Origin: Phascolarctobacterium sp.
GTDB lineage: Bacteria; Bacillota; Negativicutes; Acidaminococcales; Acidaminococcaceae
Assembly: GCA_017457085.1 (NCBI GenBank)
Contig: JAFTID010000007.1
Span: forward strand, 1-62,453
Direction of reading: 5' to 3'
DNA: 62,453 nt
The position numbers were made by a program, and so were the translations under genes. Shown here piece by piece: positions 11,537-34,362 of this stretch. The notes beneath the pieces are model-generated. The model had not been told where the DNA came from. It searched no databases and saw nothing but the letters and a program-made list of their open reading frames with translations. Each line of letters begins with the position of its first letter. The first letter of the stretch is position 1.

Positions 11537-11553
11537 TAGTTACATTAATGAAA

Positions 11554-11584: not shown

Positions 11585-11595
11585 GTTTTTGGAGG

Positions 11596-12957: not shown

Positions 12958-14304
12958 ATGCGTATCGACAAGTTATATTTGCAGAACTTTCGTTGTTATG
13001 ATGATATGGAACTTAATTTTGATAAAAATATGACCGTTATCGTTGGTGAAAATGGTAAAGGTAAGACTGCTATTTTAGATGCTTTGGCAATTTCTTTGGA
13101 GCCGTATTTGCGTGCCTTTGGCTGTAAAGGACGTAATATGAGCGAGCGTGATGTGCGCCGTATTAAAGATGCTGGTGATGAAAAGGCTTCCCGTATTTTG
13201 CGTATGAAGAGCAAGTATCCTGTTAGCATTAAGGTTGAGGGCGAGCGTGATGGCGTAGCTTTTACTTGGAGTCGTGAGCTGAAGTCCGAGCGTGGCAGGA
13301 CGACCTCCAATAATGCGAAGGAATTAGCTGATTATGGCAAGGAACTTTACGCTGGTATTAACAGTGTTAATGATGAAAAAATTATTTTGCCTGTTTTGGC
13401 TTACTACGGAACTTCCCGTATGTGGAATGATAGCAAGCTTTTACATAGAAGCAAGAAGGTAGATTTGCCTCGCAGTGTTGGTTACGAAGAATGTATTGAG
13501 CCGTCTTCTTCCTACAATACTTTCGGACAATGGTTTAAATACGCAATGCTTAGTGCTGCGGAGTTTGACCGTGCGGCGAAAGAGATTGGTGACGAGAAAG
13601 AAAATCCTTACGCAACGGTATTGCGTGCAGTTCGCCAAGCAGTTACCGCCTGCCTGAAAAGTATGGGCTGGACGGATATTAGCTTTAGCTTTGCCATGCA
13701 GGATATTGTGTTGAGCCATCCTGATATGGGCGAGCTGACCATTGACGTTTTAAGTGATGGCGCGCGTAGCGTAATTAGTATGGCGGCGGATTTAGCTTAT
13801 CGCATGGTACGTTTGAATCCTGATTTAGGAAGTCGTGCTGCGCTGGACACTCCCGGTGTGGTTTTAATAGATGAAGTTGATATGCATTTGCATCCTTCTT
13901 GGCAACAAACTGTTTTGTATGATTTGCAGGAAGCTTTTCCGAAGGTGCAGTTCATTGTGACTACTCATAGTCCGCAGGTTCTGACCTCTGTAAATCCGGA
14001 ATGCATCCGTATTTTACAATGGGGAGCTTGCTTTGAAGGTGTGCGCACGCCGGAATTTTCTTTGGGTGCAGAAAGCTATCAGCTGTTGAAAGACATTCAA
14101 AATGTAGAAACTCGTCCCCAAGCTTTGCCAATTGTTAAGGATTTGGCGCATTATTTAGAGCTTGTAGGTGAAGATAAGTGGGATAGCAAGGAAGCTTTGG
14201 AATTGCGTGCTCGTCTTGATGAATGGGCGAAAGGTCGTGAGCCTGCCCTCTTGCGTGCGGATATGGATATTCGCATGCGCCTCTTTAGGAGGAATCGCAA
14301 ATGA
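12958..14304 (+). CDS. ptuA: AAA/ABC-like ATPase of a Septu-type defence system (PtuA-like)
   Basis: 448 residues. Walker A is VVGENGKGKTAILDAL (about residues 30-45) after the RecF/SMC-like start IDKLYLQNFRCYDDM; later come YYGTSRMW, a signature-like LSDGARSVISM, Walker B GVVLIDEVDMHLHPSWQQ and the switch THSPQVLTS. This is the layout of OLD/SMC-like ATPases paired with HNH nucleases in Septu. ATG 12958 has TTGGAGG upstream. The stop overlaps the next start as ATGA, so the two proteins are translationally coupled. In known Septu the ATPase oligomer holds and controls the nuclease. Confidence 0.8.
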   Translation: MRIDKLYLQNFRCYDDMELNFDKNMTVIVGENGKGKTAILDALAISLEPYLRAFGCKGRNMSERDVRRIKDAGDEKASRILRMKSKYPVSIKVEGERDGVAFTWSRELKSERGRTTSNNAKELADYGKELYAGINSVNDEKIILPVLAYYGTSRMWNDSKLLHRSKKVDLPRSVGYEECIEPSSSYNTFGQWFKYAMLSAAEFDRAAKEIGDEKENPYATVLRAVRQAVTACLKSMGWTDISFSFAMQDIVLSHPDMGELTIDVLSDGARSVISMAADLAYRMVRLNPDLGSRAALDTPGVVLIDEVDMHLHPSWQQTVLYDLQEAFPKVQFIVTTHSPQVLTSVNPECIRILQWGACFEGVRTPEFSLGAESYQLLKDIQNVETRPQALPIVKDLAHYLELVGEDKWDSKEALELRARLDEWAKGREPALLRADMDIRMRLFRRNRK

Positions 14305-15080
14305 AACGGGTTTATAAACGTCAGCAGGAGCCTGAACTGCTGAAAAGTTATCGCGTTCGCCATCCAGATGCTACTTGGGATAAGTTTCGCAGACGTTTTA
14401 CTAGAGGGTACCGCCAAGTAAAGCAGGCGATTATTGAAGACCAACGTGGTTTGTGTGCTTACTGCGAAATTAGCATTAAGATGGCTGAGGATTACACTGA
14501 GGTTGACGATTTCCGTGTGGAACATTTCTTTCCGAAAGGATCAACCCAAAAGGGAGGACACAACTACCATTTGGATTGGCGGAATCTTTTAGGGGTGTGT
14601 CATGGTGGAAGTCAGCGTGATGTTCCCGATGCGGATTGGCGTTTTTCCGAAGAACGTCGTGATCGTAGCTGTGACGTGCCTAAAGGTGGCAAGGAAATTA
14701 CAGACCGCATTTTAAATCCTCTTAAATTGCCCGGTAACAAAAGATTATTTCGTTACACGGAGCATAACGGGCGCATGTATGTTGATGAAGAAACTTGCCC
14801 CAAAGAACTGCAAAAGAAGGCGAAAAACACTATTAAGGAACTGAATTTGAATGCTCCTCGCTTGATGAGAATGCGCAAGGCTGTCATCGACAAGCTTACT
14901 GACGAAGTAATGCAGGCATTGGCGGAGGGGCAGGAGCTGGACGAAATCTTGAGCTGGCTGGCAGAAAGCTTCTTACTCCCGGACCACAAGAATAGGAGCG
15001 TACCGTTTTTTACGGTTATTAGGTGGTATTTGGGGGAGGCGGCGGAAAAACTTATCGCTGCTAGTGGAGATAAAATATGA
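14301..15080 (+). CDS. ptuB: HNH nuclease of a Septu-type defence system (PtuB-like)
   Basis: 259 residues. The N-terminus MKRVYKRQQEPELLKSYR and the segment IIEDQRGLCAYCEI..DFRVEHFFPKG match the PtuB/TIGR02646 family: a CxxC zinc-binding turn followed by the catalytic His of an HNH domain (VEHFFPK), with a later NLLGVCHGG. By family it cleaves DNA or RNA when unleashed by the ATPase during phage infection. It overlaps ptuA by 4 bp and is followed by a terminator at 15115. No reverse transcriptase or msr-msd candidate lies nearby, so this is a stand-alone Septu rather than a retron effector. Confidence 0.8.
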   Translation: MKRVYKRQQEPELLKSYRVRHPDATWDKFRRRFTRGYRQVKQAIIEDQRGLCAYCEISIKMAEDYTEVDDFRVEHFFPKGSTQKGGHNYHLDWRNLLGVCHGGSQRDVPDADWRFSEERRDRSCDVPKGGKEITDRILNPLKLPGNKRLFRYTEHNGRMYVDEETCPKELQKKAKNTIKELNLNAPRLMRMRKAVIDKLTDEVMQALAEGQELDEILSWLAESFLLPDHKNRSVPFFTVIRWYLGEAAEKLIAASGDKI

Positions 15081-15114
15081 AAACGCGGTTTGTCGTAATT
15101 TTTATTTAAAGTAA

Positions 15115-15146
15115 CAATCCTGTCGCAAGGCAGGATTTTTCTTTTT
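15115..15146 (+). terminator. Terminator of the ptuAB operon
   Basis: ATCCTG and CAGGAT around TCGCAAGG, followed by TTTTTCTTTTTT. Confidence 0.85.
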
Positions 15147-15200
15147 TAAGTAGAATATCAACAGTTAACGACTGAATAAAATTTATTAATAGATAAGTAA

Positions 15201-15321
15201 GAAAACGTTAGAAATACCGGATAACAAGGCGGAGCAAAATTGTGCAGCGACGGCGTACTGAGCGTACGTCGAGCAAGCAATTTTAGCGACAACGCAGGAA
15301 GACGGTGTTTATAGCGTTTTC
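15201..15321 (+). repeat. Dispersed 121-bp hairpin element, copy B
   Basis: Arms GAAAACG (15201-15207) and CGTTTTC (15315-15321). Inner TTAGAAATACCG and CGGTGTTTATAG continue the stem, so 19 nt on each side pair with one mismatch. The core carries ATAACAAGGCGGAGCAAAA and GGCGTACTGAGCGTACGTCG. It ends 5 bp before the ribosome binding site of the phosphohexomutase gene. Confidence 0.9.
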
Positions 15322-15337
15322 GCAAAGGAGAATAGTG

Positions 15338-16705
15338 ATGGAAGTAACAAATAAGGGCTTCAAAGCCTATGACGTCCGCGGCGTATATCCAACTGAAGTA
15401 AACGAAGAACTTGCTTATCGAGTTGGTCGTATTTTTTCTGCAATGTTTGCAGCTGAAACTGTAGTTGTTGGTCACGACATTCGTTTGAGTGGTCGTGCGA
15501 TAGTAGATGCCTTGACTGAAGGTCTTCGTCACGGCGGCACTAAGGTTATCGATATTGGTCAATGCGGTACTGAAATGATTTACTTTGCTACTGCTCACCT
15601 CGAAGCTGACGGTGGCATTATGGTTACTGCAAGCCATAACCCTAAAGAATACAATGGTATGAAACTTGTTCGCAAAGGCGCTCGTCCCATTTCCGGTGAC
15701 ACTGGCTTGAAAGAAATTGGTGAGATGGCTGTTGCTTCAAATTTTGTGCACGCACAAGTTGCTGGCAAAACTTTGGGCGAATTAGAAAAAGTTGATATCA
15801 TGCCTGCTTACATTGAGCATTTGCTGACTTACGTTGATAAAGAAGCATTGAAACCCATGAAAATTGTTGCTAACCCCGGTAATGGTGGCGCTGGTCCCAT
15901 TATGAAAGAGTTGGCAAAACATTTGCCCTTTGAATTTATTTCTATTTTTGACGAACCGGACGGAAGTTTCCCAAATGGCGTACCCAATCCTATCTTGATG
16001 CCCAACCGCGAAGCTACTGCTAAAGTAGTGCGTGAAACTGGCGCAGATTTAGGTATTGCTTGGGACGGTGACTTTGATCGTTGCTTCCTCTTTGATGAAA
16101 ACGCAGAATTTATTGAAGGCTACTACATCGTTGGTCTCTTGGCAGAAGTGTTCCTGCTGAAAGAACCGGGTGCTAAAATTATGTACGACCCGCGTTTGAC
16201 TTGGAATACCGAAGCAATTTTGGAACGTGACGGCGGTGTGCCTGTACGTTGCAAATCTGGTCACGCCTTTATGAAAGAATGCATGCGCCAAAACGAAGTG
16301 CTTTATGGTGGTGAAATGAGTGCGCACCATTACTTCCGTGATTTCTCCTATTGTGATAGTGGTATGATTCCTTGGCTCTTAGTTGCAGAACTTATGTGCC
16401 GTAGTGGCAAAAAACTTTCTGAATTGGTTGGCACTCGTGTGGATATGTTCCCCTGCAGTGGTGAGATTAATCGCAAAGTTGACGACTCACCTGCAATTTT
16501 GAAAGCATTGGAAGAAAAATATGCTGACGGCGAACAGGATAAAATGGACGGCTTGAGCGTTGCTTATGCTGACTGGCGCTTTAACGTGCGCACCTCCAAC
16601 ACTGAACCTGTTATGCGTTTGAATGTAGAAACTAAAGGCGATAAAGAACTCTTGGCGGCGAAAACCGCAGAAATTTTAGAAATTATTGGTGGGGAGGAAG
16701 CGTAA
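15338..16705 (+). CDS. Phosphomannomutase / phosphoglucomutase
   Basis: 455 residues. The alpha-D-phosphohexomutase pattern is complete: [10 protein letters not shown] near the N-terminus, the phosphoserine loop [18 protein letters not shown], the Mg-binding [14 protein letters not shown], the sugar loop [10 protein letters not shown] and the C-terminal phosphate loop [12 protein letters not shown]. It interconverts hexose 1- and 6-phosphates. ATG 15338 follows AAAGGAG. It overlaps galU by 1 bp (TAATG), so together they would supply UDP-glucose for envelope polysaccharide. Confidence 0.95.
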
Positions 16706-17589
16706 TGTTTAAAAAAGTTCGTAAGGCAGTTATTCCTGCAGCTGGTTTAGGCACCCGCTTTTTGCCGGCAACCAAGGCTATTCCCAAAGAAATGATTCCC
16801 ATCGTGGATAAACCCACCCTGCAATATATTATTGACGAAGCTCTTGCTTCCGGCATCGAAGACATTTTGATTATTACTGGTCGCACCAAACGTGCCATTG
16901 AAGATCATTTCGACAGAAGCATCGAATTGGAATTGAACCTTGAAAAAGGTGGCAAGACTAAAGATTTGGAAATGGTTCGCGAAATCGCAGGCATCCGTGT
17001 CCATTATGTTCGCCAAAAAGAACCGCGTGGACTTGGCCACGCAATTTTGTGCGCTAAACAATTTGTTGGCGACGAACCTTTTGCTGTGCTTTTAGGTGAT
17101 GACGTTGTTGATGGTGAAGTTCCTGCATTGAAACAACTTATTGACGTTTATGATAAAACTGGCAGCAGTGTTCTTGGCGTGCAAGAAGTTCCTCTGGAAA
17201 AAGTTTCCAGCTACGGCATTGTTGCTTCCGAACCTACGGAAGATGCTCGTACCTTTACTGTAACTGATATGGTAGAGAAGCCTCCTGTTGCAGAAGCTCC
17301 CTCCCGTTTGGCAGTGTTGGGTCGTTACGTTATCAATCCGGAAATTTTCCCCATTCTGGAAGTTACCCAACCTGGTCGTGGCAATGAAATACAATTGACC
17401 GATGCTCTCCAAGTTTTGGCTAAGCAAGAAAATATGTATGCTTACAATTTCGAAGGCCGTCGCTACGATGTTGGCGATAAACAAGGCTTCCTGGAAGCAA
17501 CTGTAGAAATGGCATTGAAACGTGAAGACTTGCGTGATAAGTTCTTAACCTATTTACAAGACATCGTTGCAAAAGAAACTGCGAAATAA
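16705..17589 (+). CDS. galU: UTP-glucose-1-phosphate uridylyltransferase
   Basis: 294 residues. [23 protein letters not shown] is the nucleotide-binding loop; later [29 protein letters not shown] and [13 protein letters not shown] (binding glucose-1-phosphate and UTP) are all present. It makes UDP-glucose from UTP and glucose 1-phosphate. Coupled to the upstream phosphohexomutase by a TAATG overlap with GGGGAGG as ribosome binding site; closed by the terminator at 17596. Confidence 0.97.
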
Positions 17590-17595
17590 AAATTG

Positions 17596-17628
17596 GACCA
17601 CTCGTTTTAAAAACGGGTGGTCTTTTTG
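17596..17628 (+). terminator. Terminator after galU
   Basis: GACCACTCGTTTT and AAAACGGGTGGTC pair, followed by TTTTTGCTTTT. Confidence 0.9.
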
Positions 17629-17671
17629 CTTTTGTGGTAAGTTTTTGATAAAATATATAATCAATATGTAC

Positions 17672-17792
17672 AAAATCATTAGAAGTACTGGAAGGCAAGG
17701 AGCAGCGAAGCTTATGAAGAGAAGGCGTACTGGTGGTACGTTGAGCAAGTAAGCTAGCTGTGACACAGCATAACAGTGCTTATGATGATTTT
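17672..17792 (+). repeat. Dispersed 121-bp hairpin element, copy C
   Basis: Arms AAAATCAT (17672-17679) and ATGATTTT (17785-17792). Core TAGAAGTACTGGAAGGC, GGCGTACTGGTGGTACG and GCATAACAGTGCTTAT. The right arm directly precedes GAGG, the ribosome binding site of the ABC-F gene at 17804. Confidence 0.9.
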
Positions 17793-17803
17793 ATGAGGTT
17801 TAA

Positions 17804-19741
17804 ATGCAATTAGTAGTGGATAAAGTGGCGAAAGCCTTTGGTATAAACGAAATATTTAAAAACGTCAGCTTCATGGTTGAACAGGGCGAACATCTTGGTT
17901 TGGTAGGCGTGAATGGTAGTGGCAAGACTACCTTGCTTCGCTGTCTCTTAAATCCTGAATATGTAGATAGCGGTGCTATAAAATTTGAACCGGGCACCAG
18001 TGTTGGCTACGTACAACAAGGCTTTACAGATATTGAAGGAACCATCTGGCAGTTTATGCTGAAAAGCTGCCCAGAGATTTTAGGCTTGCGTGCTAAATTA
18101 CAGCAGATTGAAGAAGCTGCTGCTGAACTGGACGGAGCAGAATTAGACGAAGTGTTGGAAGAATATGCTCGCGTGACTAAACGCTACGAGCATGTTGATG
18201 GTTACAATCTGGAAGCTAGAATTAAGCGTGTGCTGATTGGCTTGGGCTACAAGGAAGACTGGTGGGAAAAGGATGCGGCTACATTAAGTGGCGGGCAAAA
18301 AACTCGCTTGATGTTGGCGGCTGCCCTCGTTCGTAACCCTGACTTTATGATTTTGGACGAACCGACTAACCATTTGGATATTTTGATGACTCAATGGTTG
18401 GAAGGCTATTTGAAAGAATTTCGTGGCGGTCTGATTGTTGTCAGCCATGACCGTGCCTTTTTGGATAATGTTGCTACCCGCATTCTGGAAATGGAAGGTG
18501 GCAAACTACAAAGCTTTAAAGGCAATTACACTAAATATTTAGAGCAAAAGGCAATCCAAACTCAAACCTTGGAAGCTGCCTACAATGCTCAACAAGATTA
18601 CATCGCCCGTACAGAAGCCTACATCCGTCGCTTCAAGGCTGGCATTAAAAGTAAAATGGCGCGTGGTCGTCAGTCACAGCTTGATAGATTGGAACGCATT
18701 GACGCGCCTGTATATAATGAAGAATTTGAACTGAGACTTCCTTCTGCGGCAGAATGTGCTGACAGGGTACTTATAATGGAAGATTTGACTATTGGCTATG
18801 GTGACAACGTACTTGCCAAAGGAATTAACCTTACCCTGCGCCGTGGGGAGAAGGCTGCCCTTTTAGGTGCCAACGGTACGGGCAAGACTACGCTTTTGAA
18901 AACTATCTTGGGTGAAGTTGAACCGCTCAAGGGCAGGGCGAAGATTGGTAACCGGGTGCAGATTGGTTACTTCTCTCAAACTTACGAGAGACTGAATCCC
19001 AAGCAAACTTTGCTGGAAAACTTCGTCATAGAATATGGCTTTACGGAAGAACATACTCGCTCTATGTTGGGTGGAATGCTCTTTCACGGTGATGACGTGT
19101 TCAAGGAATTTGGTATGTTGAGTGGTGGGCAGAAGGCTCGCTTAGTTTTGCTGAAGCTAGTTCTTGATGGTGCCAACTGCTTGGTGCTTGACGAACCTAC
19201 TAACCATTTAGATATAATGGCTCGCGAAACTGTGGAAGCTGCGCTGACTGCTTTCGATGGTACAGTTTTAGTTGTTAGTCATGACCGTTACTTTGTCAAT
19301 GAAATTGCCAATAGAATTTGGGAAATTGAAGATTGCCAAGTAAAAGATTACAAAGGCACCTACGAATTTTACAATGAAGAACGTGCCAAAGAAGCTGCCC
19401 TGCTTGCTGAACGGGAAGCTGAATTAGAAAGGCAACGTGCTTATGCGGAACAGCAAGCTAAGAAAAATGCATCGCAGGCTGCTTCCGTAAAGGTTGAAGC
19501 TAAAAATAAACAACGTCGTTATAGTCCTGACGAAGCGAGAAAGCTTTTGCCGAAGGTTGAGCTGAGCATTCGTGAGCAAGAAGCGATGATGAAAATTTTG
19601 GAAATGAAAATGGCAGACCCTGCCAACCACGCTGACCCTGCCCAAAGTGCGGCGATGGCGGCGGAACACGACGAGTACGAAAATAAAATTATGGAATTGA
19701 TGGAAAAGTGGGAGCAACTTATGGAGGCGAGCGAAGAATGA
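17804..19741 (+). CDS. ABC-F family ATPase with C-terminal coiled coil
   Basis: 645 residues, two ABC domains without membrane segments: Walker A GVNGSGKTTLLR (about 35) and GANGTGKTTLLK (about 360); signatures LSGGQKTRL and LSGGQKARL; Walker B FMILDEPTNHLD and CLVLDEPTNHLD. A charged linker (QARTEAYIRRF..SKMARGRQSQLDR) joins them and a coiled-coil tail (about 535-645) follows, as in Uup/YdiF-type members that act on ribosomes or DNA. It is not an exporter. Start follows TGAGGTTT. It overlaps tadA by 4 bp (ATGA), which suggests a shared translation role. Confidence 0.93.
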   Translation: MQLVVDKVAKAFGINEIFKNVSFMVEQGEHLGLVGVNGSGKTTLLRCLLNPEYVDSGAIKFEPGTSVGYVQQGFTDIEGTIWQFMLKSCPEILGLRAKLQQIEEAAAELDGAELDEVLEEYARVTKRYEHVDGYNLEARIKRVLIGLGYKEDWWEKDAATLSGGQKTRLMLAAALVRNPDFMILDEPTNHLDILMTQWLEGYLKEFRGGLIVVSHDRAFLDNVATRILEMEGGKLQSFKGNYTKYLEQKAIQTQTLEAAYNAQQDYIARTEAYIRRFKAGIKSKMARGRQSQLDRLERIDAPVYNEEFELRLPSAAECADRVLIMEDLTIGYGDNVLAKGINLTLRRGEKAALLGANGTGKTTLLKTILGEVEPLKGRAKIGNRVQIGYFSQTYERLNPKQTLLENFVIEYGFTEEHTRSMLGGMLFHGDDVFKEFGMLSGGQKARLVLLKLVLDGANCLVLDEPTNHLDIMARETVEAALTAFDGTVLVVSHDRYFVNEIANRIWEIEDCQVKDYKGTYEFYNEERAKEAALLAEREAELERQRAYAEQQAKKNASQAASVKVEAKNKQRRYSPDEARKLLPKVELSIREQEAMMKILEMKMADPANHADPAQSAAMAAEHDEYENKIMELMEKWEQLMEASEE

Positions 19742-20241
19742 TGGATGACCGTTATTATATGCAGCTTGCCCTCGAAGAAGCTGGTAAGGCTGCAGAATTA
19801 GGAGAGATTCCCATTGGCGCAGTGCTTGTTCATAATGGCGAAGTAGTTTGCCGTGCCCATAATATGCGCGAAACTTGGCAGAGTGCTACTGCTCATGCAG
19901 AGGTTATCGTCATTGAAGAAGCTTGCAAAAAATTAGCGCGCTGGCGTTTAAGTGGTTGCACCTTGTACGTTACAGTAGAGCCTTGCCCCATGTGCAGTGG
20001 TGCTATTGTGAATAGTAGAATTGACAGGGTGGTGTATGGTTGTCCTGATGTGAAGGCTGGCGGCGCAGAATCTATCTTCAATATCATTACTAATCCTAAC
20101 TTGAACCATTGTGCGGAAGTTGTCAGTGGTGTGTGCGAAGAAGAATGTGCTGGCGTAATGAAGGCGTTCTTTAAACGCAGACGCAAGGAGAACAAGGCGA
20201 AGAAGCAGGAGCAGAAATGTGACTGCGGTTGTAAAGCGTAA
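19738..20241 (+). CDS. tadA: tRNA-specific adenosine deaminase
   Basis: 167 residues. The zinc-deaminase motifs are intact: TAHAEVIVIEEA (His plus catalytic Glu) and EPCPMCSGAIVNSRI (two Cys ligands); IPIGAVLVHNGEVV and DVKAGGAES are typical of TadA. It converts A34 to inosine in tRNA-Arg(ACG). A Lys- and Cys-rich tail (KCDCGCKA) after the catalytic core is unusual and could bind metal or RNA. GGAGGCGA precedes the overlapping start; ATG 19741 is an equally possible start. Confidence 0.93.
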   Translation: MMDDRYYMQLALEEAGKAAELGEIPIGAVLVHNGEVVCRAHNMRETWQSATAHAEVIVIEEACKKLARWRLSGCTLYVTVEPCPMCSGAIVNSRIDRVVYGCPDVKAGGAESIFNIITNPNLNHCAEVVSGVCEEECAGVMKAFFKRRRKENKAKKQEQKCDCGCKA

Positions 20242-20330
20242 AATTTTCGGTTATACTAAAAGAAGTGTTCTCCTAAAATTAAGAATTATGCACTAATATA
20301 AATACAGGACACATAAAAGCAGAAAAGTAA

Positions 20331-20451
20331 GAATGGGTCAGAAGTGCCAGATAACAAGGCGGAACAAAATTGTGAAGCGAAGGCGTACTTGACGTACGTC
20401 GAGCGAGCAATTGCAGTTCCAACGCAGGAAGATGGCGCTTATCACCCATTC
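20331..20451 (+). repeat. Dispersed 121-bp hairpin element, copy D
   Basis: Arms GAATGGGT (20331-20338) and ACCCATTC (20444-20451). Core AGAAGTGCCAGATAACAAGG, GGCGTACTTGACGTACGTCG, CAACGCAGGAAGATGGCGC. It ends 7 bp before the first base of tRNA-Ser, so it would be part of that tRNA precursor if transcribed from upstream. Confidence 0.9.
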
Positions 20452-20458
20452 GTAATAG

Positions 20459-20547
20459 GGAGATGTAGCGAAGTGGTCATAACGCGCCTGACTCGAAATC
20501 AGTTGTACCGCAAGGTACCGTGGGTTCGAATCCCACCATCTCCGCCA
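20459..20547 (+). tRNA. tRNA-Ser(CGA)
   Basis: 89 nt with encoded CCA. Acceptor GGAGATG/CATCTCC, anticodon loop CTCGAAA (anticodon CGA), a long class II variable arm (TGTACCGCAAGGTACC) and T-arm GGGTTCGAATCCC. Confidence 0.95.
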
Positions 20548-20555
20548 AAGTAAAT

Positions 20556-20594
20556 TTTCCCGTAGGCTGAACGGCTTGCGGGATTTTTATTTTT
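20556..20594 (+). terminator. Terminator after tRNA-Ser
   Basis: TCCCGTAGGC and GCTTGCGGGA form a stem with flanking A- and T-rich runs (TTTTTATTTTT). Confidence 0.85.
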
Positions 20595-20724
20595 CTGTAA
20601 CATTCGTATCACAGTAACCTATAAGTTTTTCGTTATGCCAACTAAATTTGCACAAGGCAAGCGTTCTTTGATAAAATAATTGAAATGTTGATATAGAGTT
20701 TGTATGTTTAAGGGGGCATTATTG

Positions 20725-21579
20725 ATGAAGATTATAGACGTGTTAAATCAAGATAAAGTAAATATTTCCTGCGAGCTGTTCCCACCCAAGCAAGGTTCGG
20801 AATTGCAGAACGCATTGGATATTGTTAACAAGATTGCGTTGGTGAAGCCTTCTTATATGAGCGTTACCTACGGCGCGGGGGGAACTTCCGTCGGACACAC
20901 CGTTGCTATTGCTAAAGGTGTACAGGATAACGGTATCCCTGCTTTGGCGCATTTGACTTGTGTGAAATCTGACGAAGCAAATATTTTGGCAGTGCTCCAA
21001 CAATTAAAAGACAATGGTATTCATAACGTGCTTGCATTGCGTGGCGATTTGCCCGACGCAGTACACGATGGCTATTTTGCTCATGCCAGCGATTTGGCGA
21101 AGTTTGTCAAGGCAAATGGTGACTTCTGCGTAGGCGGTGCTGCTTATCCCGAAGGACATCCTGAGGCAGGCACTCTTGATAAGGATATTGAAAATACTAA
21201 ATATAAAATCGATGCAGGCGTTGATTTTTTAGTGACCCAAATGTTTTTTGACAACACGGTTCTCTACAATTATATGTTCCGCCTGCTTTCCGCAGGTATT
21301 CATGTGCCTGTAGTTCCTGGTATTATGCCTGTGACCAACGCTGGACAGATTAATCGTATTTGTCAACTGAGTGGCACCAAGCTTCCGCCTCAGTTCCGTG
21401 CCATCGTAGAAAAATTTGCGGATAAACCGGAAGCTTTGAAGCAAGCTGGTATTGCATACGCTACGGGACAAATCATAGATCTTATTGCCAACGGTTTCAA
21501 AAATATTCACGTTTACACTATGAACCGTCCGGAAATCATCGGTGGTATTATGAGAAACTTGTCGGAGATTGTAAAATGA
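20725..21579 (+). CDS. metF: 5,10-methylenetetrahydrofolate reductase
   Basis: 284 residues. The TIM-barrel FAD enzyme pattern is clear: ISCELFPPKQGSELQ, YMSVTYGAGGTSVGHT, ALAHLTCVKSD, NVLALRGDLP, FLVTQMFFDNTVLYNY and VPGIMPVTNAGQI. It reduces methylene-THF to methyl-THF for methionine synthesis. ATG 20725 follows AAGGGGG by 8 bases; the ATG at 20704 overlaps nothing useful. It overlaps the reactivation-domain gene by 4 bp and is the first gene of a methionine-cycle operon. Confidence 0.95.
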   Translation: MKIIDVLNQDKVNISCELFPPKQGSELQNALDIVNKIALVKPSYMSVTYGAGGTSVGHTVAIAKGVQDNGIPALAHLTCVKSDEANILAVLQQLKDNGIHNVLALRGDLPDAVHDGYFAHASDLAKFVKANGDFCVGGAAYPEGHPEAGTLDKDIENTKYKIDAGVDFLVTQMFFDNTVLYNYMFRLLSAGIHVPVVPGIMPVTNAGQINRICQLSGTKLPPQFRAIVEKFADKPEALKQAGIAYATGQIIDLIANGFKNIHVYTMNRPEIIGGIMRNLSEIVK

Positions 21580-22199
21580 GATACTCTAGAGCCGAAGCGT
21601 TGCGTTATTTGAGAGCGCAGGCTAATGACGAAGCGGCAGGCATTTTAGTTGATACAGTTTTTCTGAAATTGCGTAACGAGGTGCAGGCTCGTCACCTTTT
21701 GCAAAAGCACACTTGCGAAATTTTAGAAGACGGAGTGCTTTTGGACTGTAGTGTGAAATTTACGTCTAAGGATTTGGCGAAGCACCTATCTGGTTGCAAG
21801 GAAGTGTTGCTTTTGGCGGCGACATTAGGTAGCAAAGTAGATGTTGCCATTCGCAGGTTTTCTCTTGAAAGTGTAGCAGAAGGTGCGGCGGCACAGGCAG
21901 TGGCGGCTTGTATTATTGAAGGCTACTGTGATGAAATGCAGGAGCGTTTTGAGACAGACTTAAAACAAAGACCACGCTTCTCTCCCGGTTACGGCGACTG
22001 GGACTTGTCAGAGCAACGTAAGCTATTTGCAATCTTAGAGTGTGAGAAAAAGTTAGGACTAACTTTGACAGACGGCTTGATGATGGCACCGTCTAAATCT
22101 GTGACGGCGGTGATTGGGTTGTCGGAAGAAGCCGCATGCCTTTGGAACAAATGTGAACAATGCAATAATATAAATTGTCCCTACAGGGAGGTTGAATAA
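21576..22199 (+). CDS. Stand-alone cobalamin-dependent methionine synthase reactivation domain
   Basis: 207 residues. The C-terminal part RPRFSPGYGDWDLSEQ..LGLTLTDGLMMAPSKSVTAVIGLS is the AdoMet-binding activation fold of MetH (RxSPGYG and MxPxKSVT). In E. coli this is the MetH C-terminus; here it is a separate gene just before a metH that ends after the B12 domain, so the two should work in trans. The start overlaps metF (ATGA) and the stop overlaps metH (TAATG). The tail CEQCNNINCPY is Cys-rich, consistent with the 'level of specificity' end of related proteins. Confidence 0.9.
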   Translation: MRYSRAEALRYLRAQANDEAAGILVDTVFLKLRNEVQARHLLQKHTCEILEDGVLLDCSVKFTSKDLAKHLSGCKEVLLLAATLGSKVDVAIRRFSLESVAEGAAAQAVAACIIEGYCDEMQERFETDLKQRPRFSPGYGDWDLSEQRKLFAILECEKKLGLTLTDGLMMAPSKSVTAVIGLSEEAACLWNKCEQCNNINCPYREVE

Positions 22200-24565
22200 T
22201 GAGTTTTAAAGATTTATTGGGTAAAGAACTCCTGTTTTTTGACGGAGCAATGGGTACCATGCTGCAAGCTCGTGGCTTGAAACCCGGTGAGCTGCCAGAA
22301 CTTTGGAACTTTACCCACGCTGATGTAATTAAAGAAGTACACACTGCTTACCTCAAAGCAGGTGTTAATATTATAAAGACCAATACCTTTGGCGCTAACC
22401 ATTTAAAATTTGCTGGTACTGGTATCAGAACTGCGGAAGTTGTTGCCGCAGGTGTACGCAATGCCAAAGAAGCTTGCGCACCTTTTGAAAAAACTTTTGT
22501 AGCTTTGGACCTAGGTCCCACTGGTAAACTGCTTGCTCCCTACGGGGACCTGCCCTTTGAAGAAGCAGTAGACATTTACGCAGAAATTGTTCGTGCCGGC
22601 AGTGAAGCAGGTGCAGATTTAGTACTCATCGAAACTATGAGCGATACCTATGAAACTAAAGCAGCAATTTTGGCGACGAAGGAAAACTGCGACTTGCCCG
22701 TTGTAGTTACTATGACTTTTGATATTGACGGCAAACTTTTGACTGGTGGCGACGTTGCCGCTGCTGCCTTAATGGTAGAAGGCTTGGGCGCAGATGCCAT
22801 TGGCTTTAACTGTGGACTTGGTCCTGCCCAAATGCAAAAGCTGTTGCCTCAATTGTTAAGCTTTACCAGCTTGCCAATAGTTTTGAATCCAAACGCAGGC
22901 TTACCTGTAGAACGTGAGGGGAAAACCTGCTTTGACGTTGGACCCGAAGAATTTGCAGATTTAATGTACGATTTAATTGGCGAAGGCGTGAGCATTGCAG
23001 GTGGCTGCTGTGGTACAACTCCGGAGCATATCGGCGCGATGATTGCCAAATGTAAGGAACTTCCTGCTGGCGGCAGACGTGCTTGTAATGTTACTGCTGT
23101 TTCCAGTTATGGTAAGGCAGTTGTTTTTGGCAAAGAGTCCATCATTATCGGTGAACGCATTAATCCCACAGGTAAACCTCGCCTGAAAGAAGCGTTACAA
23201 AATGCGGACTACGATTATATTTGTCGCTTAGGCTTGGAGCAAATTAGTGCTGGCAGTCACGTGCTGGATGTAAATGTGGGTATGCCCGGTATTGACGAAG
23301 CAGATGCTTTGGGCAAAGCTGTTCTGGCACTCCAAGGCATTACGGATACTCCACTAGAAATTGATACTTCCAATTACGAAGCGATGGAGCGTGCTTTACG
23401 TTTATATAACGGCAAGCCTATGTTGAACTCCGTTAACGGTAAGGTAGAAAGCTTGGAGAAAGTACTGCCCTTAGTTAAAAAATATGGTGCAGTGGTTGTT
23501 GCCCTGTGCCTTGACGATAACGGTATACCTTTAGATACTGCAGGTCGCATTGCCATTGCAGAAAATATTATTGCCAAAGCCGCAGAATATGGCATTAGCT
23601 CTCGTGATATTGCCGTTGATCCTTTGGCTTTGACCATTAGTACTGGCAGTGAAAATGCTAAGGTTGCCTGTGAAGTTATTACTGCCATGTGCGAGCGTGG
23701 CATCAATACGGTGATGGGCGTTTCCAATATTTCCTTTGGCTTGCCCGGTCGCGAGCTGATTAACAGCGTGTTCTATACTCTTGCTTTGCAGGCTGGATTG
23801 ACCAGTGCTATTATCAACCCCCAAAGCAAAATGATGATGGATGCTTATTACAGCTTCCTTGCTTTGAACGGCTTGGACGATGGCTGTAAAGAATACGTTG
23901 CTCGCTATGCTAATGCTCCGAAAGCAGGCGCTACCATCGTTAGCGAGATGAGCCTTTTTGATGCAATCGTGAAAGGTTTGATTGGCGAAAGTAAAAAAGC
24001 AACTGCGGTGGCGTTGCAAAGTGAAGCTCCGTTAGATGTTATCAATAAATATATGATTCCTGCCCTTGATTTTGTGGGCGAGGGTTTTGAAAAGAAAACT
24101 TTGTTCCTGCCCCAACTATTGATGAGTGCTGATGCGGCGAAGGCTGCTTTCGATGTTATTCGTGATTCCGTAGGAGGAAGTGGCGAAGCTAACGGCGAAA
24201 AAGTAATTATCGCAACTGTTCACGGCGATATTCACGACATTGGTAAGAACATTGTAAAAGTTTTAATGGAAAACTACGGCTACAGAGTTATTGATTTGGG
24301 CAAGGACGTGCCTGTGGAAACTGTAGTTGCCGCTGCTAAAGAACATGGCGCAAAAGTTGTAGGACTTTCTGCCTTGATGACTACCACTGTTGCGGCTATG
24401 GAAGAAACCATTAAAGCATTGCGCAAGGAAGTGGACTGCAAGGTTGTAGTTGGCGGCGCAGTGCTGACGGAAGAATATGCCCAAACGATTGGCGCAGACC
24501 ATTTTGCTTCCTCAGCTGTTAGCGCAGTTAACTATGTAAACGAAATCTTAGGTAAATCGTTATAA
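22199..24565 (+). CDS. metH: Cobalamin-dependent methionine synthase lacking its reactivation domain
   Basis: 788 residues. Domains in order: homocysteine S-methyltransferase with zinc ligands FNCGLG and GGCCGTTPEH (residues 1 to about 300); pterin-binding methyl-THF domain from IIIGERINPTGKPRLKEAL to about 570; B12 module cap and B12-binding domain with base-off histidine motif GDIHDIGKNIV (about 680) and GLSALMTTTV. E. coli MetH (over 1,200 residues) also has a reactivation domain, here encoded by the preceding gene. Its last codons (AAA TCG TTA) are one arm of repeat copy E. Confidence 0.96.
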   Translation: MSFKDLLGKELLFFDGAMGTMLQARGLKPGELPELWNFTHADVIKEVHTAYLKAGVNIIKTNTFGANHLKFAGTGIRTAEVVAAGVRNAKEACAPFEKTFVALDLGPTGKLLAPYGDLPFEEAVDIYAEIVRAGSEAGADLVLIETMSDTYETKAAILATKENCDLPVVVTMTFDIDGKLLTGGDVAAAALMVEGLGADAIGFNCGLGPAQMQKLLPQLLSFTSLPIVLNPNAGLPVEREGKTCFDVGPEEFADLMYDLIGEGVSIAGGCCGTTPEHIGAMIAKCKELPAGGRRACNVTAVSSYGKAVVFGKESIIIGERINPTGKPRLKEALQNADYDYICRLGLEQISAGSHVLDVNVGMPGIDEADALGKAVLALQGITDTPLEIDTSNYEAMERALRLYNGKPMLNSVNGKVESLEKVLPLVKKYGAVVVALCLDDNGIPLDTAGRIAIAENIIAKAAEYGISSRDIAVDPLALTISTGSENAKVACEVITAMCERGINTVMGVSNISFGLPGRELINSVFYTLALQAGLTSAIINPQSKMMMDAYYSFLALNGLDDGCKEYVARYANAPKAGATIVSEMSLFDAIVKGLIGESKKATAVALQSEAPLDVINKYMIPALDFVGEGFEKKTLFLPQLLMSADAAKAAFDVIRDSVGGSGEANGEKVIIATVHGDIHDIGKNIVKVLMENYGYRVIDLGKDVPVETVVAAAKEHGAKVVGLSALMTTTVAAMEETIKALRKEVDCKVVVGGAVLTEEYAQTIGADHFASSAVSAVNYVNEILGKSL

Positions 24566-24672
24566 GCACTGTTATGCTTTGTCGCAGTTCATTCGCTTGC
24601 TCGACGCACGCCTAGTACGCCGTCGCTTCATGAATTTCACTGCTTCGCGCCTTCCAGCACTTCTAACGATTT
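24554..24672 (-). repeat. Dispersed 121-bp hairpin element, copy E
   Basis: Arms AAATCGTTA (24554-24562) and TAACGATTT (24664-24672). The left arm is coding sequence, the Lys-Ser-Leu codons ending metH. The core is nearly the same as copy A (TTATGCTTTGTCGCAGTTCA, TTCACTGCTTCGCGCCTTCC). Confidence 0.9.
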
Positions 24673-24710
24673 TGACGAAGCTGTTAGTAAAAAATGGAGG
24701 TGTTCAACAA

Positions 24711-24971
24711 ATGAATATCTATGTTTGGCGTCACAATAAAACTTACCATTCCCACAGTATGATTGAAGAACCCTGTCTTAACAGTGAGTTCTACTTAGAT
24801 GCCATTGCCATTGTAGTTGCTTCCAGTTTGGAGGAAGCTCTTGAAAAATTAGTGGAGCAAAAGCAAGGCTGGCGCGTTGAAGACCTGAAAGCGCATCCTT
24901 GTACAGTTATTCCCATTGATAAGGCTGGGGTAGTGTTTACGGAACTGCGTGGCGCAATTCATCATTTATAA
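24711..24971 (+). CDS. Small conserved-looking protein of unknown function
   Basis: 86 residues beginning MNIYVWRHNKTYHSHSMIEE with a later SSLEEALEKLVEQKQGWRVE. No signal peptide, membrane helix or motif I can assign. A strong GGAGGTG site lies 9 bases upstream, so it is probably expressed. It sits between two same-orientation copies (E and F) of the dispersed hairpin element, with copy F's arm overlapping its stop codon. Confidence 0.7.
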   Translation: MNIYVWRHNKTYHSHSMIEEPCLNSEFYLDAIAIVVASSLEEALEKLVEQKQGWRVEDLKAHPCTVIPIDKAGVVFTELRGAIHHL

Positions 24972-25092
24972 AATTATTATAAGCACCATTATGCTTTGTC
25001 ACAGCTCGTTTACTTGCTCTGCGTACGCTAAGTACGCCATCGCTGCATAAACTTCGCTGTTCCGCACCTTCTGGCGCTTCTAAAAATTTTAT
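24968..25092 (-). repeat. Dispersed 121-bp hairpin element, copy F
   Basis: Arms ATAAAATT (24968-24975) and AATTTTAT (25085-25092). The left arm overlaps the TAA stop of the small protein gene. The core is more diverged (TTATAAGCACCATTATGC, CTGCGTACGCTAAGTACG, GGCGCTTCTAA). Confidence 0.88.
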
Positions 25093-25106
25093 TAATAGAA
25101 AAATAA

Positions 25107-25150
25107 AAAGCACAAGCTTCTACTATAATGTAGGAACTTGTGCTTTAACT
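25107..25150. terminator. Terminator after lrgB
   Basis: AAAGCACAAG and CTTGTGCTTT with an inner TTCTAC/GTAGGAA stem; on the minus strand followed by TTTTTATTTTT. Confidence 0.85.
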
Positions 25151-25152
25151 TT

Positions 25153-25860
25153 TTATAAACTTTTCAAAATTGGTAAGAGCAGGGGAATACAAATGGAAGT
25201 CGCCACGCCTGTAAGGGCAATGGACACTCCGCCTGTTGCCAGTTGAACTGCGCTAACGTGGGCGCAAACGCTGGTGCCAATTCCGTGGCTGGAAGCTCCA
25301 ATGGCAATGCCTGCGGCAATATCATTTTTAATTCCTAAAATTTTTAGAAGCTTGTGGTTAATGGTAGCGCCAAACATTCCCGTACATATTACCACCGCTG
25401 CGGTTAACGGTTGAATGCCGCCGAGGGATTTGGTGATTTCCAAAGCAATTGGGTTGGTGACGGATTTAGGCAGCATGGAAAGCAGTACTGCTTCGCTGGC
25501 ACCAAGAGTTTTACCCAAAAGGTACACGCTAAAAATTGCAGAAAGGGTTGCCACCAAAATACCAACGATAATACCAAAGGCGTTCTCTTTGATTACGTGA
25601 CGGTTGCGGTACAAGGGTAAGGCGAGGGCGATTGTCGCAGGGCCTAGTAAAAAGTTGATGAAGTCTGCACCAATTTTATATTGGTGGTAGCTGACGTTGG
25701 GAACGTAAAGTAAAAATAAAATAATTGCAGGGCAGGCAAAGACGATGGGCGGAATGATGTTCAGTTCCAAACGGCGCACTAGTAATTCGCAGGCACAGTA
25801 GATGATAATCGTCAAGCCCATGCCAAATAAAGGAGAGTTAAGCAAAACTTCAGGTAACAT
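25153..25860 (-). CDS. lrgB: LrgB family membrane protein
   Basis: 235 residues with about seven membrane helices. The family patterns LLGPATIALALPLYRNR, LSMLPKSVTNPIALEI and IGASSHGIGTSVCAHVS are present. LrgB/CidB proteins work with LrgA/CidA in murein hydrolase control and in pyruvate or glycolate transport. It overlaps lrgA, which lies directly upstream on the same strand, and is followed by the terminator at 25107. Confidence 0.93.
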   Translation of the reverse strand: MLPEVLLNSPLFGMGLTIIIYCACELLVRRLELNIIPPIVFACPAIILFLLYVPNVSYHQYKIGADFINFLLGPATIALALPLYRNRHVIKENAFGIIVGILVATLSAIFSVYLLGKTLGASEAVLLSMLPKSVTNPIALEITKSLGGIQPLTAAVVICTGMFGATINHKLLKILGIKNDIAAGIAIGASSHGIGTSVCAHVSAVQLATGGVSIALTGVATSICIPLLLPILKSL

Positions 25861-26231
25861 TATTGCTGACCTCCTTTTTCTTTTTTGCGGAGGAGCATTT
25901 CCAGAACCAAAGCAGTGCTACACAAAATAACTAAGCTGCTGATGACGAGCGTTAGGGAAATTGGCAGTAACTCTGCTTTGATAATGTCAAGGTACAAAAT
26001 CATGCTTACGCCCGCAGGCAAAAAGAGCAAAGCCATTTTGTCAATCAACGCTCCGCAAATATCTTCAATATATTTTTCCTTGACTACTCCTGTGCAAAGA
26101 AGCGCTGTCAAAATCAACATGCCCAGTAGCGGAGCAGGAAAGGGGATGCCTAAAAAGGATATTATCTCCGTACTCACCCATTGAAGCAGTAAAAGTATGG
26201 AGAAGCCTTGCAATAATTTTGTTGGAGTCAT
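25860..26231 (-). CDS. lrgA: LrgA/CidA family holin-like protein
   Basis: 123 residues, four membrane helices: LLQGFSILLLLQWVSTEI, FPAPLLGMLILTALLC, KMALLFLPAGVSMILYL and a last helix, then a KKEKGG tail. The pattern I..PAPLLGM...LL and LFLPAGV is the LrgA/CidA signature. It forms a two-gene operon with lrgB. A truncated copy (G) of the dispersed element lies 19 bp upstream of its start. Confidence 0.93.
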   Translation of the reverse strand: MTPTKLLQGFSILLLLQWVSTEIISFLGIPFPAPLLGMLILTALLCTGVVKEKYIEDICGALIDKMALLFLPAGVSMILYLDIIKAELLPISLTLVISSLVILCSTALVLEMLLRKKEKGGQQ

Positions 26232-26249
26232 AAAAATACCTCTTAAAAT

Positions 26250-26290
26250 ATTTTATAAACATTGTTATGCTTTGGCGCAGTTCATTCGTT
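26250..26290 (-). repeat. Dispersed hairpin element, truncated copy G
   Basis: Only the gene-proximal third is recognisable (TTATAAACATTGTTATGCT, then GCGCAGTTCATTCG); the rest is lost. It lies upstream of lrgA with the TTATAA end nearest the gene, as in full copies. Confidence 0.75.
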
Positions 26291-26389
26291 TTAATGATAC
26301 TACATAATTTAATTAATGTCAGCAAAGATAAAAGGCAAAAAGTCAAAATAAACTATTTGACATTTCGACATTTGTTGTTATAATAAAAA

Positions 26390-26416
26390 TTGCAGGAAGG
26401 ATTTACCCTCCTGCAA
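26390..26416 (-). terminator. Terminator after the 353-residue gene
   Basis: TTGCAGGA and TCCTGCAA pair; on the minus strand followed by TTTTTATT. Confidence 0.8.
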
Positions 26417-26452
26417 TAAAAATACAAAAACTTTTAAATTGATTGTCACCAC

Positions 26453-27514
26453 TTATTTAAGGAACAACCCTACAATGGAAACGAGCAAGATACCTGCAAG
26501 GATTGCTGTGGAAGTAATGCTCATGCGTTCCAAACGATAGCTTTCTACTTCTTCGTTCATTAAGGTATAGGTACGTTGGATGGTGTTCAATTTGTAATCG
26601 ATGTTGTCCTTCCAAACAGTTGCCTTCAAAAGTTCAAGGTAACGGGTGTAGATGCGAGCGTAGAAAATATCTTCGGTAACTTGCAATGCATTGTTGATGT
26701 TACCCATAATGTTACTGATATCCGCCATGATTTCCATCAAACGGCTACGGATACGACGGTAAACTTCTACACGATTTGCTTTGTTGGCAACGTTAGCTTC
26801 TTCCAGTTCGTCATAACTGCGGTCAATGGCATCTGCAAGAGCGTTGTCGTAGTAGCGCAGTTCCAAGAATTGAGCGTTAGCAAATTCCAGAAGGTCAGGC
26901 ACGTCAAGGCTGCCGGTCTTGTCATAAACAAGAGCGCTGTCCCAAGCAAGATAGGTAATATCGTCGCTGTAGGAGAAGCAGTTAGCTAAAGTGCTTTGGC
27001 GAGTTTGCTCGCTAACAGGAGTTTTATCCTTCAAGAGCAGGGGCACAATGTCCCATTTAGGCATTTCGTCTTTGAAGTAGTAAACAACAAAGTCTTCTTC
27101 AAAGTCAGAAACACGTTTCTTGGTGCAAGCTTGCTCGATGGTTTCCAAAACGGAATCCAAAAATTCGTGAATCTTGTCTTCGGGCATATTTTCGCTGGCG
27201 ATTGCCATGTCGATATATTCAGCTTCGGTAACGTCTTCTTCAAATTCAATGCGAATGATAAGACTGATTACGCCGATGTCGAAGATGCGAGCCTTAACTT
27301 CGGTAAAATAAGTTTTACCATTGATTTCCAAATCGTGGTTGCCAAGTTCCACCAGTACAGGGGGGTTTTTAAAGGTAATGGATTTGGTGGAAATTCTATC
27401 CAAGCGCAGACGGGAAGCAATTTTATTGCGACTGGTCCACAGGGCTTGTACTAAATCAAGATTTATTTCATCAGCAACGTCAAAGAGACGATAAACAATC
27501 ATGGATGTGTTCAT
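26453..27514 (-). CDS. RMD1/DUF155-like protein with C-terminal membrane anchor
   Basis: 353 residues. The body is soluble and acidic (MNTSMIVYRLFDVADEINLD.., EFEEDVTEAEYIDMAIASEN). Near the C-terminus a helical stretch (TVWKDNIDYKLNTIQRTYTL, MNEEVESYRLERMSI) precedes one hydrophobic helix, STAILAGILLVSIVGLFLK. That end and the all-alpha/beta body resemble RMD1/YagE (DUF155) proteins, but I assign this weakly. Start ATG has AAGGAGG upstream on the minus strand. A tail-anchored inner-membrane protein facing the cytosol is likely; function unknown. Confidence 0.6.
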   Translation of the reverse strand: MNTSMIVYRLFDVADEINLDLVQALWTSRNKIASRLRLDRISTKSITFKNPPVLVELGNHDLEINGKTYFTEVKARIFDIGVISLIIRIEFEEDVTEAEYIDMAIASENMPEDKIHEFLDSVLETIEQACTKKRVSDFEEDFVVYYFKDEMPKWDIVPLLLKDKTPVSEQTRQSTLANCFSYSDDITYLAWDSALVYDKTGSLDVPDLLEFANAQFLELRYYDNALADAIDRSYDELEEANVANKANRVEVYRRIRSRLMEIMADISNIMGNINNALQVTEDIFYARIYTRYLELLKATVWKDNIDYKLNTIQRTYTLMNEEVESYRLERMSITSTAILAGILLVSIVGLFLK

Positions 27515-27612
27515 AGCAAATACCTCCTTATAAAAGTACTGTACCTACGTTAATTCTCCGCAAGAACAAAATTTCCTGCGATAAAAGATAAAAATTAAAA
27601 TATTATTTTGTC

Positions 27613-27733
27613 AAAACTGTTAGAAGTGCCAGATGACAAGGCGGAGCAAAGTTGTGAAGCGATGGCGTACTAAGCGTACGTCGAGCAAGCAACTGTAGCG
27701 ACAACGCAGTAAGATGGTGCTTATAGCAGTTTT
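27613..27733 (+). repeat. Dispersed 121-bp hairpin element, copy H
   Basis: Arms AAAACTG (27613-27619) and CAGTTTT (27727-27733). Core TTAGAAGTGCCAGATGACAA, GGCGTACTAAGCGTACGTCG, GATGGTGCTTATAG. Located directly upstream of the clpB ribosome binding site. Confidence 0.9.
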
Positions 27734-27757
27734 TGAAAAGAAAGAGGTAATACATAA

Positions 27758-30301
27758 ATGAATGAAAACTTTTCTGAATCTGTAAAAAGTATTCTCGAAG
27801 CAGCTCAACAACAAGCTGTAATGAATTATCATCAAGAATTAACCACTGCCCACGTAGTAGCAGCCTTGTGCGGCAGCGAAGGCTTCTTTAAATTTTTACT
27901 GCAAACCTTGCACGTAAACGCAGATGCTTTCACCGCAGATGCCAAAGCTTTGGTGCAAAAAATCCCTGGAGTGAAAGGTCAAGACCGTCAGCTGATGATG
28001 GGTACTGCCTTCGCTCGCGTAATGGCAATGCTAGCGCAAAGCGGTAAAAGTGAAATCACCATTGGCGATTTGGTAGCAACCATTGTCAGCGATGGTGACA
28101 GCGACGTAGTTTCTCTGTTTAAAAAATATGGCATTGATAAAAAGAAAGTTGAGGCAGCCTACATGCAATATCAAAACAGCGCAGGCGACGAAGAAAACAA
28201 AAAGACTCTGGAAAAATTTGGTCAAGATTTGACTGCTAAAGCTCGCGAAGGCAAGCTGGACCCGGTTATTGGTCGTGATGAAGAAATCCGTCGCGTTATC
28301 GAAATCTTGAGTCGCCGTAAAAAGAATAATCCTGTACTCATCGGTGAACCGGGCGTAGGTAAAACTGCCATTGCTGAAGGCTTGGCTAGACGTATCGTAG
28401 CAGGTGATGTTCCTGAAAATTTGAAGAACAAAACCTTGTATGCTTTGGATTTGGCTTCACTTGTTGCCGGTGCTAAGTTCCGCGGTGAGTTTGAAGAACG
28501 CCTGAAAAAAGTTCTCAAGGCAATTACCGACAGTGCTGGTCAAATCATTATGTTCATTGACGAATTGCACACTGTTGTTGGTGCTGGCGCTGCCGAAGGC
28601 TCTATGGATGCAGGCAATATTTTGAAACCTATGCTTGCCCGTGGCGAGCTCCGTTGTATTGGCGCAACTACCTTGAACGAATACCGTAAATATATTGAAA
28701 AAGATAGTGCTCTTGAACGTCGCTTCCAACCTGTTATGGTAAAACAACCTGGCGTTGAAGATACCATTTCTATTTTGCGTGGCTTGCGTGAACGCTACGA
28801 AGTACATCATGGCGTACGCATTAAGGATGCGGCTTTGGTAGCAGCGGCTGTGCTTTCCAATCGCTACATTAATGACCGCTTCTTACCTGACAAAGCCATC
28901 GACCTGGTGGACGAAGCTGCAGCAAGACTCCGTACTGAAATTGACAGCTTACCTGCAGAGCTTGACGAAAGCAAACGCAGAATTTTGCAACTGGAAATTG
29001 AAGCACAAGCTTTGAGTAAGGAAGAAGACGAACAATCTAAAGCACGCCTTGCGAAAATTGAAGAAGAGCTTGCTAAATTGCGTAAGGCTAATGACGAACT
29101 GGTAGCACGTTGGGACGGAGAGAAGGCTTCCATCGCCCGTGTGCGTGAAGTGAAAAAAGAAATTGATGCTGTTAAGCAAGAAATGGAGCAAGCTGAACGC
29201 GATTACAATTTGAACAAGCTTGCAGAATTGAAATACGGACGCTTGCCTGAACTGCAAAAAGAATTGGCAGACCTTTCCGTTAAAGACGAAAAAGGTAACG
29301 ACCACGTTCTGCTGAAAGAAGAAGTTGACGAAGAAGACATTGCCAAAGTTGTTAGCACTTGGACTGGTATTCCTGTAGCACGACTTGGCAGTGGCGAACG
29401 TGAAAAACTGGTACACTTGGAAGAAATCCTCCATCAACGGGTTGTTGGTCAAGACGAAGCAGTGAAAGCGGTAAGCGAAGCAGTTGTTCGTGCCCGCGCT
29501 GGTATTAAAGACCCCAATCGTCCTATTGGCAGCTTCATCTTCCTTGGACCTACCGGTGTAGGTAAAACTGAATTGGCAAAAACCTTGGCAGAAGTACTCT
29601 TTGACGATGAACGCAACATGGTGCGCATCGACATGAGCGAATACATGGAGAAACATACTGTGTCCCGTTTGATTGGCGCGCCTCCGGGTTACGTTGGTTA
29701 TGATGAAGGCGGTCAACTGACGGAAGCAGTACGCCGCCATCCTTACAGTGTAATTCTTTTGGACGAAATCGAAAAAGCACACGCAGATGTGTTCAACGTG
29801 TTGCTCCAAGTGCTTGACGACGGTCGCTTAACTGACGGTCAAGGTAGAAGTGTTGACTTCAAAAACACTCTTATCATTATGACCAGTAACCTTGGCAGTG
29901 CAGAGATTATGCGTAAACAAGGCAAGATTGACCGCGACGACGTACAACAAATGTTGATGAACTTCTTCCGTCCGGAATTCCTTAACCGTGTGGACGATAT
30001 TGTTGTTTTCAAACCCTTGCAAGCAGAACAAATCAAAGACATTGTTAAACTTGTTCTCAAAGAATTGGCAGAACGTCTTGCAAAACAACTGGAGATTAAA
30101 CTGGAAGCAAGCGACGAAGCAATCGCTCACCTTGCAAGCGCAGGTTTTGACCCCGCTTTTGGTGCACGTCCCTTGAAACGATTGATTGTGCATACTGTAG
30201 AAAACTTGCTGGCTCGTAAAATTGTGGCTGGCGAAATTAAAAATGGCGACACCGCAGAAGTAATCATGAATGGTGAAAATGTAGACGTAGTCGTAAAATA
30301 A
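27758..30301 (+). CDS. clpB: ATP-dependent disaggregase ClpB
   Basis: 847 residues: N domain (1 to about 145), AAA-1 with Walker [16 protein letters not shown] and pore loop [14 protein letters not shown], a coiled-coil M domain (about 400-530), AAA-2 with [18 protein letters not shown] and [20 protein letters not shown], then a D2 small domain. It has a ClpB-type long M domain and no ClpP-binding IGF loop that I can see. It rescues aggregated proteins with DnaK. ATG 27758 follows AAAGAGGT. No CIRCE or CtsR box is visible upstream; repeat copy H occupies the gap instead. Confidence 0.96.
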
Positions 30302-33350: not shown

Positions 33351-33395
33351 AAACAGGATTTAACTTACCTTAACGGTTCGTTAAATCCTGTTTTG
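33351..33395 (+). repeat. Duplicated terminator hairpin around the RelA/SpoT cassette, copy 1
   Basis: AACAGGATTTAAC and GTTAAATCCTGTT with TTTTGTGTTTT after. Apart from one base in the loop the same hairpin recurs in direct orientation at 34316-34360, enclosing the two genes between. Confidence 0.9.
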
Positions 33396-33473
33396 TGTTT
33401 TATTTACTTCCTTTTCGTTGACGTAGAAATATAAAAATAATAAAATGTAATTGCAAAGGGAGGAGGCGTTCTT

Positions 33474-34315: not shown

Positions 34316-34362
34316 AAACAGGATTTAACTTACCTCAACGGTTCGTTAAATCCTGTTTTGTT
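34316..34362 (+). repeat. Duplicated terminator hairpin around the RelA/SpoT cassette, copy 2
   Basis: Same hairpin as 33351-33395 (one loop base differs), directly after the second gene and followed by TTTTGTTGTTT. Confidence 0.9.

Follow-up and report, generated by a model that had tools for sequence, protein, structure and literature searches.

The stretch of DNA analysed here (the window) is contig JAFTID010000007.1 of Phascolarctobacterium sp. (assembly GCA_017457085.1), 62,453 nt in length. It holds nine copies (A–I) of one imperfect hairpin, all nine of which were verified. Three copies have arms overlapping coding sequence, as the initial annotation had stated. In copy A (11415–11535, + strand) the left arm, AAA TAG, forms the final Lys codon and the TAG stop of the YbjQ gene, which ends at 11421; in copy E (24553–24673, + strand) the left arm, AAA TCG TTA TAA, encodes the Lys-Ser-Leu-stop end of metH (stop codon at 24563–24565); in copy F (24970–25090, + strand) the left-arm AAA completes a TAA stop ending at 24971. 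Copies B, C, H and I, described earlier as ending a few bases before a ribosome binding site, and truncated copy G lie just upstream of a start codon. Copy B (15201–15321, − strand) has its left end ahead of the next gene's start, at a site occupied by a different subfamily in the congeneric genome G003; in copy C (17672–17792, − strand) ∼11 nt separate the left end from the gene start at 17804, and the left end is 24 nt before the start of clpB in copy H (27613–27733, − strand) and 19 nt before the gene at 43107 in copy I (42967–43087, − strand). Copy G (26246–26291, + strand), truncated to the left end only, lies upstream of the gene starting at 26231. Finally, copy D (20331–20451, − strand) has its left end 7 bp before the tRNA-Ser gene (20459–20547).

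Copies of this hairpin make up a family of elements of ∼120 nt. The window's genome carries at least 40 copies, and three congeneric genomes carry at least 21 each. Four congeneric genomes (G000–G003) were read in part, as stretches around loci; these parts contained 169 full-length copies (43, 18, 59 and 49 in G000, G001, G002 and G003, respectively). One other genus of the same family has a few copies, which are weaker relatives, and a search of the remaining genera of the family produced none. In a genome of this other genus (G019) a full-length copy with paired arms AAAAGCG/CGCTTTT has a right-half fragment nearby (locus L042). Among partial copies in G002 and G003 (e.g. L239:6524, L156:16225 and L200:44) left-half or left-end remnants outnumber right-end remnants. 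No match to the element was found in the phages, plasmids and viral contigs searched, and Rfam covariance models applied to window positions 11000–28000 matched tRNA only, with no family for the element.

In all nine window copies the GCTTATA end is on the gene side. This orientation, pointed out in the initial annotation, turned out to be a stronger rule than had been claimed: in the parts read of the four genomes the left end, TTATAAGC, is the one closer to a gene in 140 copies versus 16. With orthologous loci collapsed, the left end is nearer the gene at 88 of 99 independent loci (88 versus 11, P = 5e-16). The left end overlaps the stop codon or is at most 3 nt away from it in 102 of the 121 stop-facing copies, with 10.7 expected under uniform sliding in the gap; a right end overlapping a stop codon or within 3 nt of it was seen in one case. 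Start-facing copies (with starts called by a simple rule, and tRNA genes outside the gene scan) are mostly 10–24 nt upstream of the start codon, and a nearly all-pyrimidine flank, the complement of a ribosome binding site, adjoins the arm AAA. Placement at gene borders is far beyond chance. As the stop, start-side and tRNA placements all involve the left end, the left-end rule is common to all three; such one-sided and near-perfect placement poses the question of how an inserting element could be guided to stop codons or to ribosome binding sites.

One explanation would be selection that keeps the hairpins as mRNA-end structures, for stability or translation coupling, with pairing retained for that function. 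Placement at stop codons agrees with this idea, and so does the covariation through the whole stem described below, but at the ribosome binding sites and the tRNA 5′ end that the left end faces as well, it is the opposite strand that is transcribed. Moreover, the element is missing from many orthologous sites, and its arms decay one side at a time in place; we consider this explanation unlikely. One-sided erosion of 3′ UTRs up to the stop codon was rejected, as the intergenic length of occupied sites minus the element equals the length of empty sites (net difference near 0).

Relative to the element, stop codons end at only a small set of offsets: 0 to 3 (in or just before the arm AAA), 7 (TAG), 10 (TGA) and 13 (TAA of TATAAG). 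In 32 copies from 21 independent loci the stop is inside the arm and in frame, yielding protein tails such as Lys-Ser-Leu, Lys-Val-Leu and Leu-Asn-Ala-Leu. In G000 and most outgroup genera KorC ends with (V/I)-Lys-stop, but in G002 and G003 with VKL-stop; the LNAL tail of PepT is absent from outgroups. Among the four genomes MetH has the KSL-stop end in G000 only; it ends with Lys-stop in G002 and G003 (AAA TAG) and in G001 (AAA TAA, with no element there). Since MetH of these relatives ends with Lys-stop, the host can account for no more of the gene-side arm than about AAA-T-A. Judging from these alignments, the extra codons KSL, VKL and LNAL are element sequence and not ancestral. The repeat, positioned to the base at gene ends, thus rewrites how several housekeeping proteins (MetH, Ddl, KorC, PepT and RuvB) end at the C-terminus, and short genus-specific protein tails, as well as seemingly ‘pre-existing’ arms, should be treated with caution as they can be relics of repeats.

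The initial annotation had proposed that the coding arm, if original, served as the template from which the distal arm was made as a reverse complement. The C-termini in relatives and outgroups, such as the Lys-stop end of metH, speak against the first part of this proposal for most copies. Of the other flanks compared, ybjQ of G001 carries what appears to be a scar and clpB of G001–G003 has no element. Where an orthologous site lacks the element, host similarity to the left arm mostly stops with the A-run, sometimes extending a few bases further. The second part fared better: sites read as empty did not contain the distal arm, apart from one alternative alignment path at pepT. The proposal nevertheless needs an original coding arm, and in most cases that arm is not original. 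Palindromic target sites were rejected as well, given that the arms are absent from sites read as empty.

Three of the ‘empty’ sites are, as far as the alignments tell, scars and not pristine sites. In G001 ybjQ retains AAAATAGTTATAAG with the rest of the element gone; korC in G002 and pepT in G001 similarly keep the gene-side arm alone. The gene-side arm would be left behind because it carries the stop codon, so that lost elements leave stop-codon scars. A host origin of the gene-side arm at the korC and pepT sites was considered and dropped, as the outgroup C-termini indicate that the tails were made by the element. No clean recent insertion matched by a near-identical empty site was seen in the genome parts read; therefore, the order of events at the birth of a copy was not directly observed.

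These observations bear on hairpin-primed copying, by which host DNA provides the gene-side arm and serves at insertion as template for a reverse-complementary distal arm. The lack of distal arms in sites read as empty is what such copying predicts, but the coding tails are missing in outgroups and the ‘pre-existing’ gene-side arms at korC and pepT look like scars. The structure of the element adds two further objections. The consensus folds as a single long, imperfect stem with 35 pairs. Pair-keeping changes on both sides were seen in 19 of these pairs, distributed along its full length, and a T-C mismatch close to the ends is conserved in 160 of 169 copies. The terminal inverted repeats form an outer stem of 10 bp, with a sharp fixed length, where pairing is copy-specific (profile positions 5–15). 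Positions 9–12 are paired in 89–92% of copies versus 44–66% with shuffled partners; position 5 is paired in 45% versus 28%, and the excess is gone from position 4 outward. As covariation spans the whole hairpin, the arms need no special copying step. Furthermore, the variable arm bases are biased (G at position 12 in 80%, C at position 11 in 56%; most commonly ATCG, ATTG, CGCG or AGCG) and have no detectable resemblance to the nearby flank, a result that also led us to reject the arms as copies of that flank. The variable bases are not host-like; together, their bias and dissimilarity to the flank point to arms belonging to the element.

Comparison of copies suggests that arms go with the locus and not with the core. 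When cores at least 0.96 identical are found at different loci, the copies share only 0.63 of arm sites, hardly more than other copies do. Copies at the same locus with core identity of 0.60–0.78 keep 0.69–0.75 of arm sites, and those at different loci 0.47–0.51. One G000 locus has a core 98% like that of another locus and 82% like that of its own orthologue, while keeping the arms of the orthologue together with their mismatch; this case suggests core exchange without the arms. Renewal of the arms at every transposition, a candidate based on near-identical cores with different arms, was abandoned when exchange of cores between copies that retain their arms was seen to account for these pairs, at least partly. 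In chimaeric copies, with halves from different subfamilies, the arms are fully paired in 1 of 14 versus 73–87% in pure types, so that the arm of each half stays with that half. Several loci are occupied, to within 1 nt of the same position, by wholly different subfamilies in different species, each with its own matched arms; core conversion alone does not account for such repeated occupation of one spot.

Some of the arm changes favor hairpin-primed copying. Core swaps were accompanied by 34 paired versus 16 one-sided arm changes, and in-place drift by 9 paired versus 37 one-sided; re-matched arms, in other words, go with core swaps and not with drift. Arm pairing is near-perfect in copies with recently shared cores (96% versus 85%). 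Set against the outgroup tails, the scars, the arm bases and the stem-wide covariation, this evidence leaves copying of host DNA at insertion quite improbable. We give similarly little credence to a version in which the element is directed to stops and gene borders, the gene-side arm comes from the locus and the distal arm is produced by self-primed hairpin extension of fixed length at each arrival of a core. Arm-to-arm copying may still have produced three right arms that read CTA opposite a TAG stop, one at ybjQ in G000 and two in G003, at ddl and ruvB.

The same three arms, facing in-frame TAG stops, could have been matched after insertion by template switching from either arm to the other during replication (quasi-palindrome correction). 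Such switching within inverted repeats has been described and can homogenize arms and alter codons (PMC8794818, PMC8604942). The metH arms, TCG/TCG in G000 versus TAG/TCG in G002 and G003, fit such correction, and in-place paired changes are slightly above chance. However, true orthologues show 70 one-sided arm changes versus 11 paired (∼2 paired expected by chance); constant arm-to-arm correction is therefore weak. Steady correction should also erase the stem mismatch, which persists in the element, and a chimaera accounts for the mismatch at ruvB in G002. Thus, a few arms, at most, may owe their match to TAG stops to template switching; it is not required for the family, and as a general explanation it seems rather doubtful.

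We somewhat favor a different reading, the most economical one, in which the hairpins are a small non-coding mobile family of the general bacterial small-palindrome kind, the arms being the element's own outer stem and the left end being placed at gene borders. The left end is set on or beside a stop codon, shortly ahead of a ribosome binding site, or, in one case, at the 5′ side of a tRNA gene. On landing at a stop, the A-run would complete TAA, or an in-frame TAG, TGA or TATAA would become the new stop; the element landing there thereby supplies the protein's final residues, hence the arm's ‘overlap’ with coding sequence. Maintenance of the hairpin as a whole keeps its stem paired. Cores would be exchanged between loci by recombination, probably conversion, with arms tending to remain with the locus; exchange of half-elements would give chimaeras with mismatched arms, and loss of an element could leave the gene-side arm as a scar. 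Placement, arm pairing, the lack of the tails in outgroups, the chimaeras and the stem-wide covariation were all observed; beyond these, we infer that the family was mobile in the past, possibly as a folded single strand moved by an enzyme acting in trans.

Integron attC sites are imperfect hairpins beside stop codons, with fixed orientation, a conserved mismatch and arms that vary in sequence but remain paired. The element shares all of these features. Unlike attC sites, it is scattered at single housekeeping genes and occurs before start codons as well, with no cassette arrays seen. An integron origin was rejected since no integrase match above the TIGR02249 cut-off was found in five genomes.

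REPINs, doublets of REP sequences mobilized by RAYT transposases, are also intergenic hairpins of ∼100 nt, non-coding, with many copies per genome and decaying partial copies (PMC3116915). The element is likewise an inverted hairpin doublet, intergenic and multicopy; it differs in having no noted GTAG foot and in ends tied to stop codons. The Y1/RAYT transposase family PF01797 was absent from the genome parts read of G000, G001, G003 and G019; G002 has two PF01797 Y1 (IS200-type) genes, at loci L222 and L223, with no element in either locus. Mobilization by RAYT was rejected, the Y1 gene being present in one of four congeneric genomes only and with no copy adjacent. Among MITE-like palindromic repeats of bacteria are ERIC, RUP, YPAL and the Rickettsia palindromic elements, which resemble the element in size (∼100–170 nt), long imperfect stem and occasional fusion to reading frames (PMC2229807). 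In contrast to these repeats, the element has one fixed end at gene borders and locus-specific self-complementary outer arms, is restricted to one genus plus a relative, and produced no target duplication: no direct repeat was found at any tested length beyond a small composition-level excess. A longer autonomous version, i.e. a split element with an internal gene, was not present in the sequence read, which covers the genomes in part.

A few other repeats were noted. The sequence TTTTGACGAAGCT occurs just beyond the right arm at three unrelated loci (window 24666–24685; L005 near 275; L200 near 2490) and perhaps represents an extended version of the element. Two terminator-like hairpins in the window (33351–33404 and 34316–34369), separate from the element family, are 94% identical and ∼965 nt apart. 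In addition, a pair of 60-nt repeats (5970–6029 and 6404–6463), 92% identical and with internal inverted symmetry, flanks a short region of the window.
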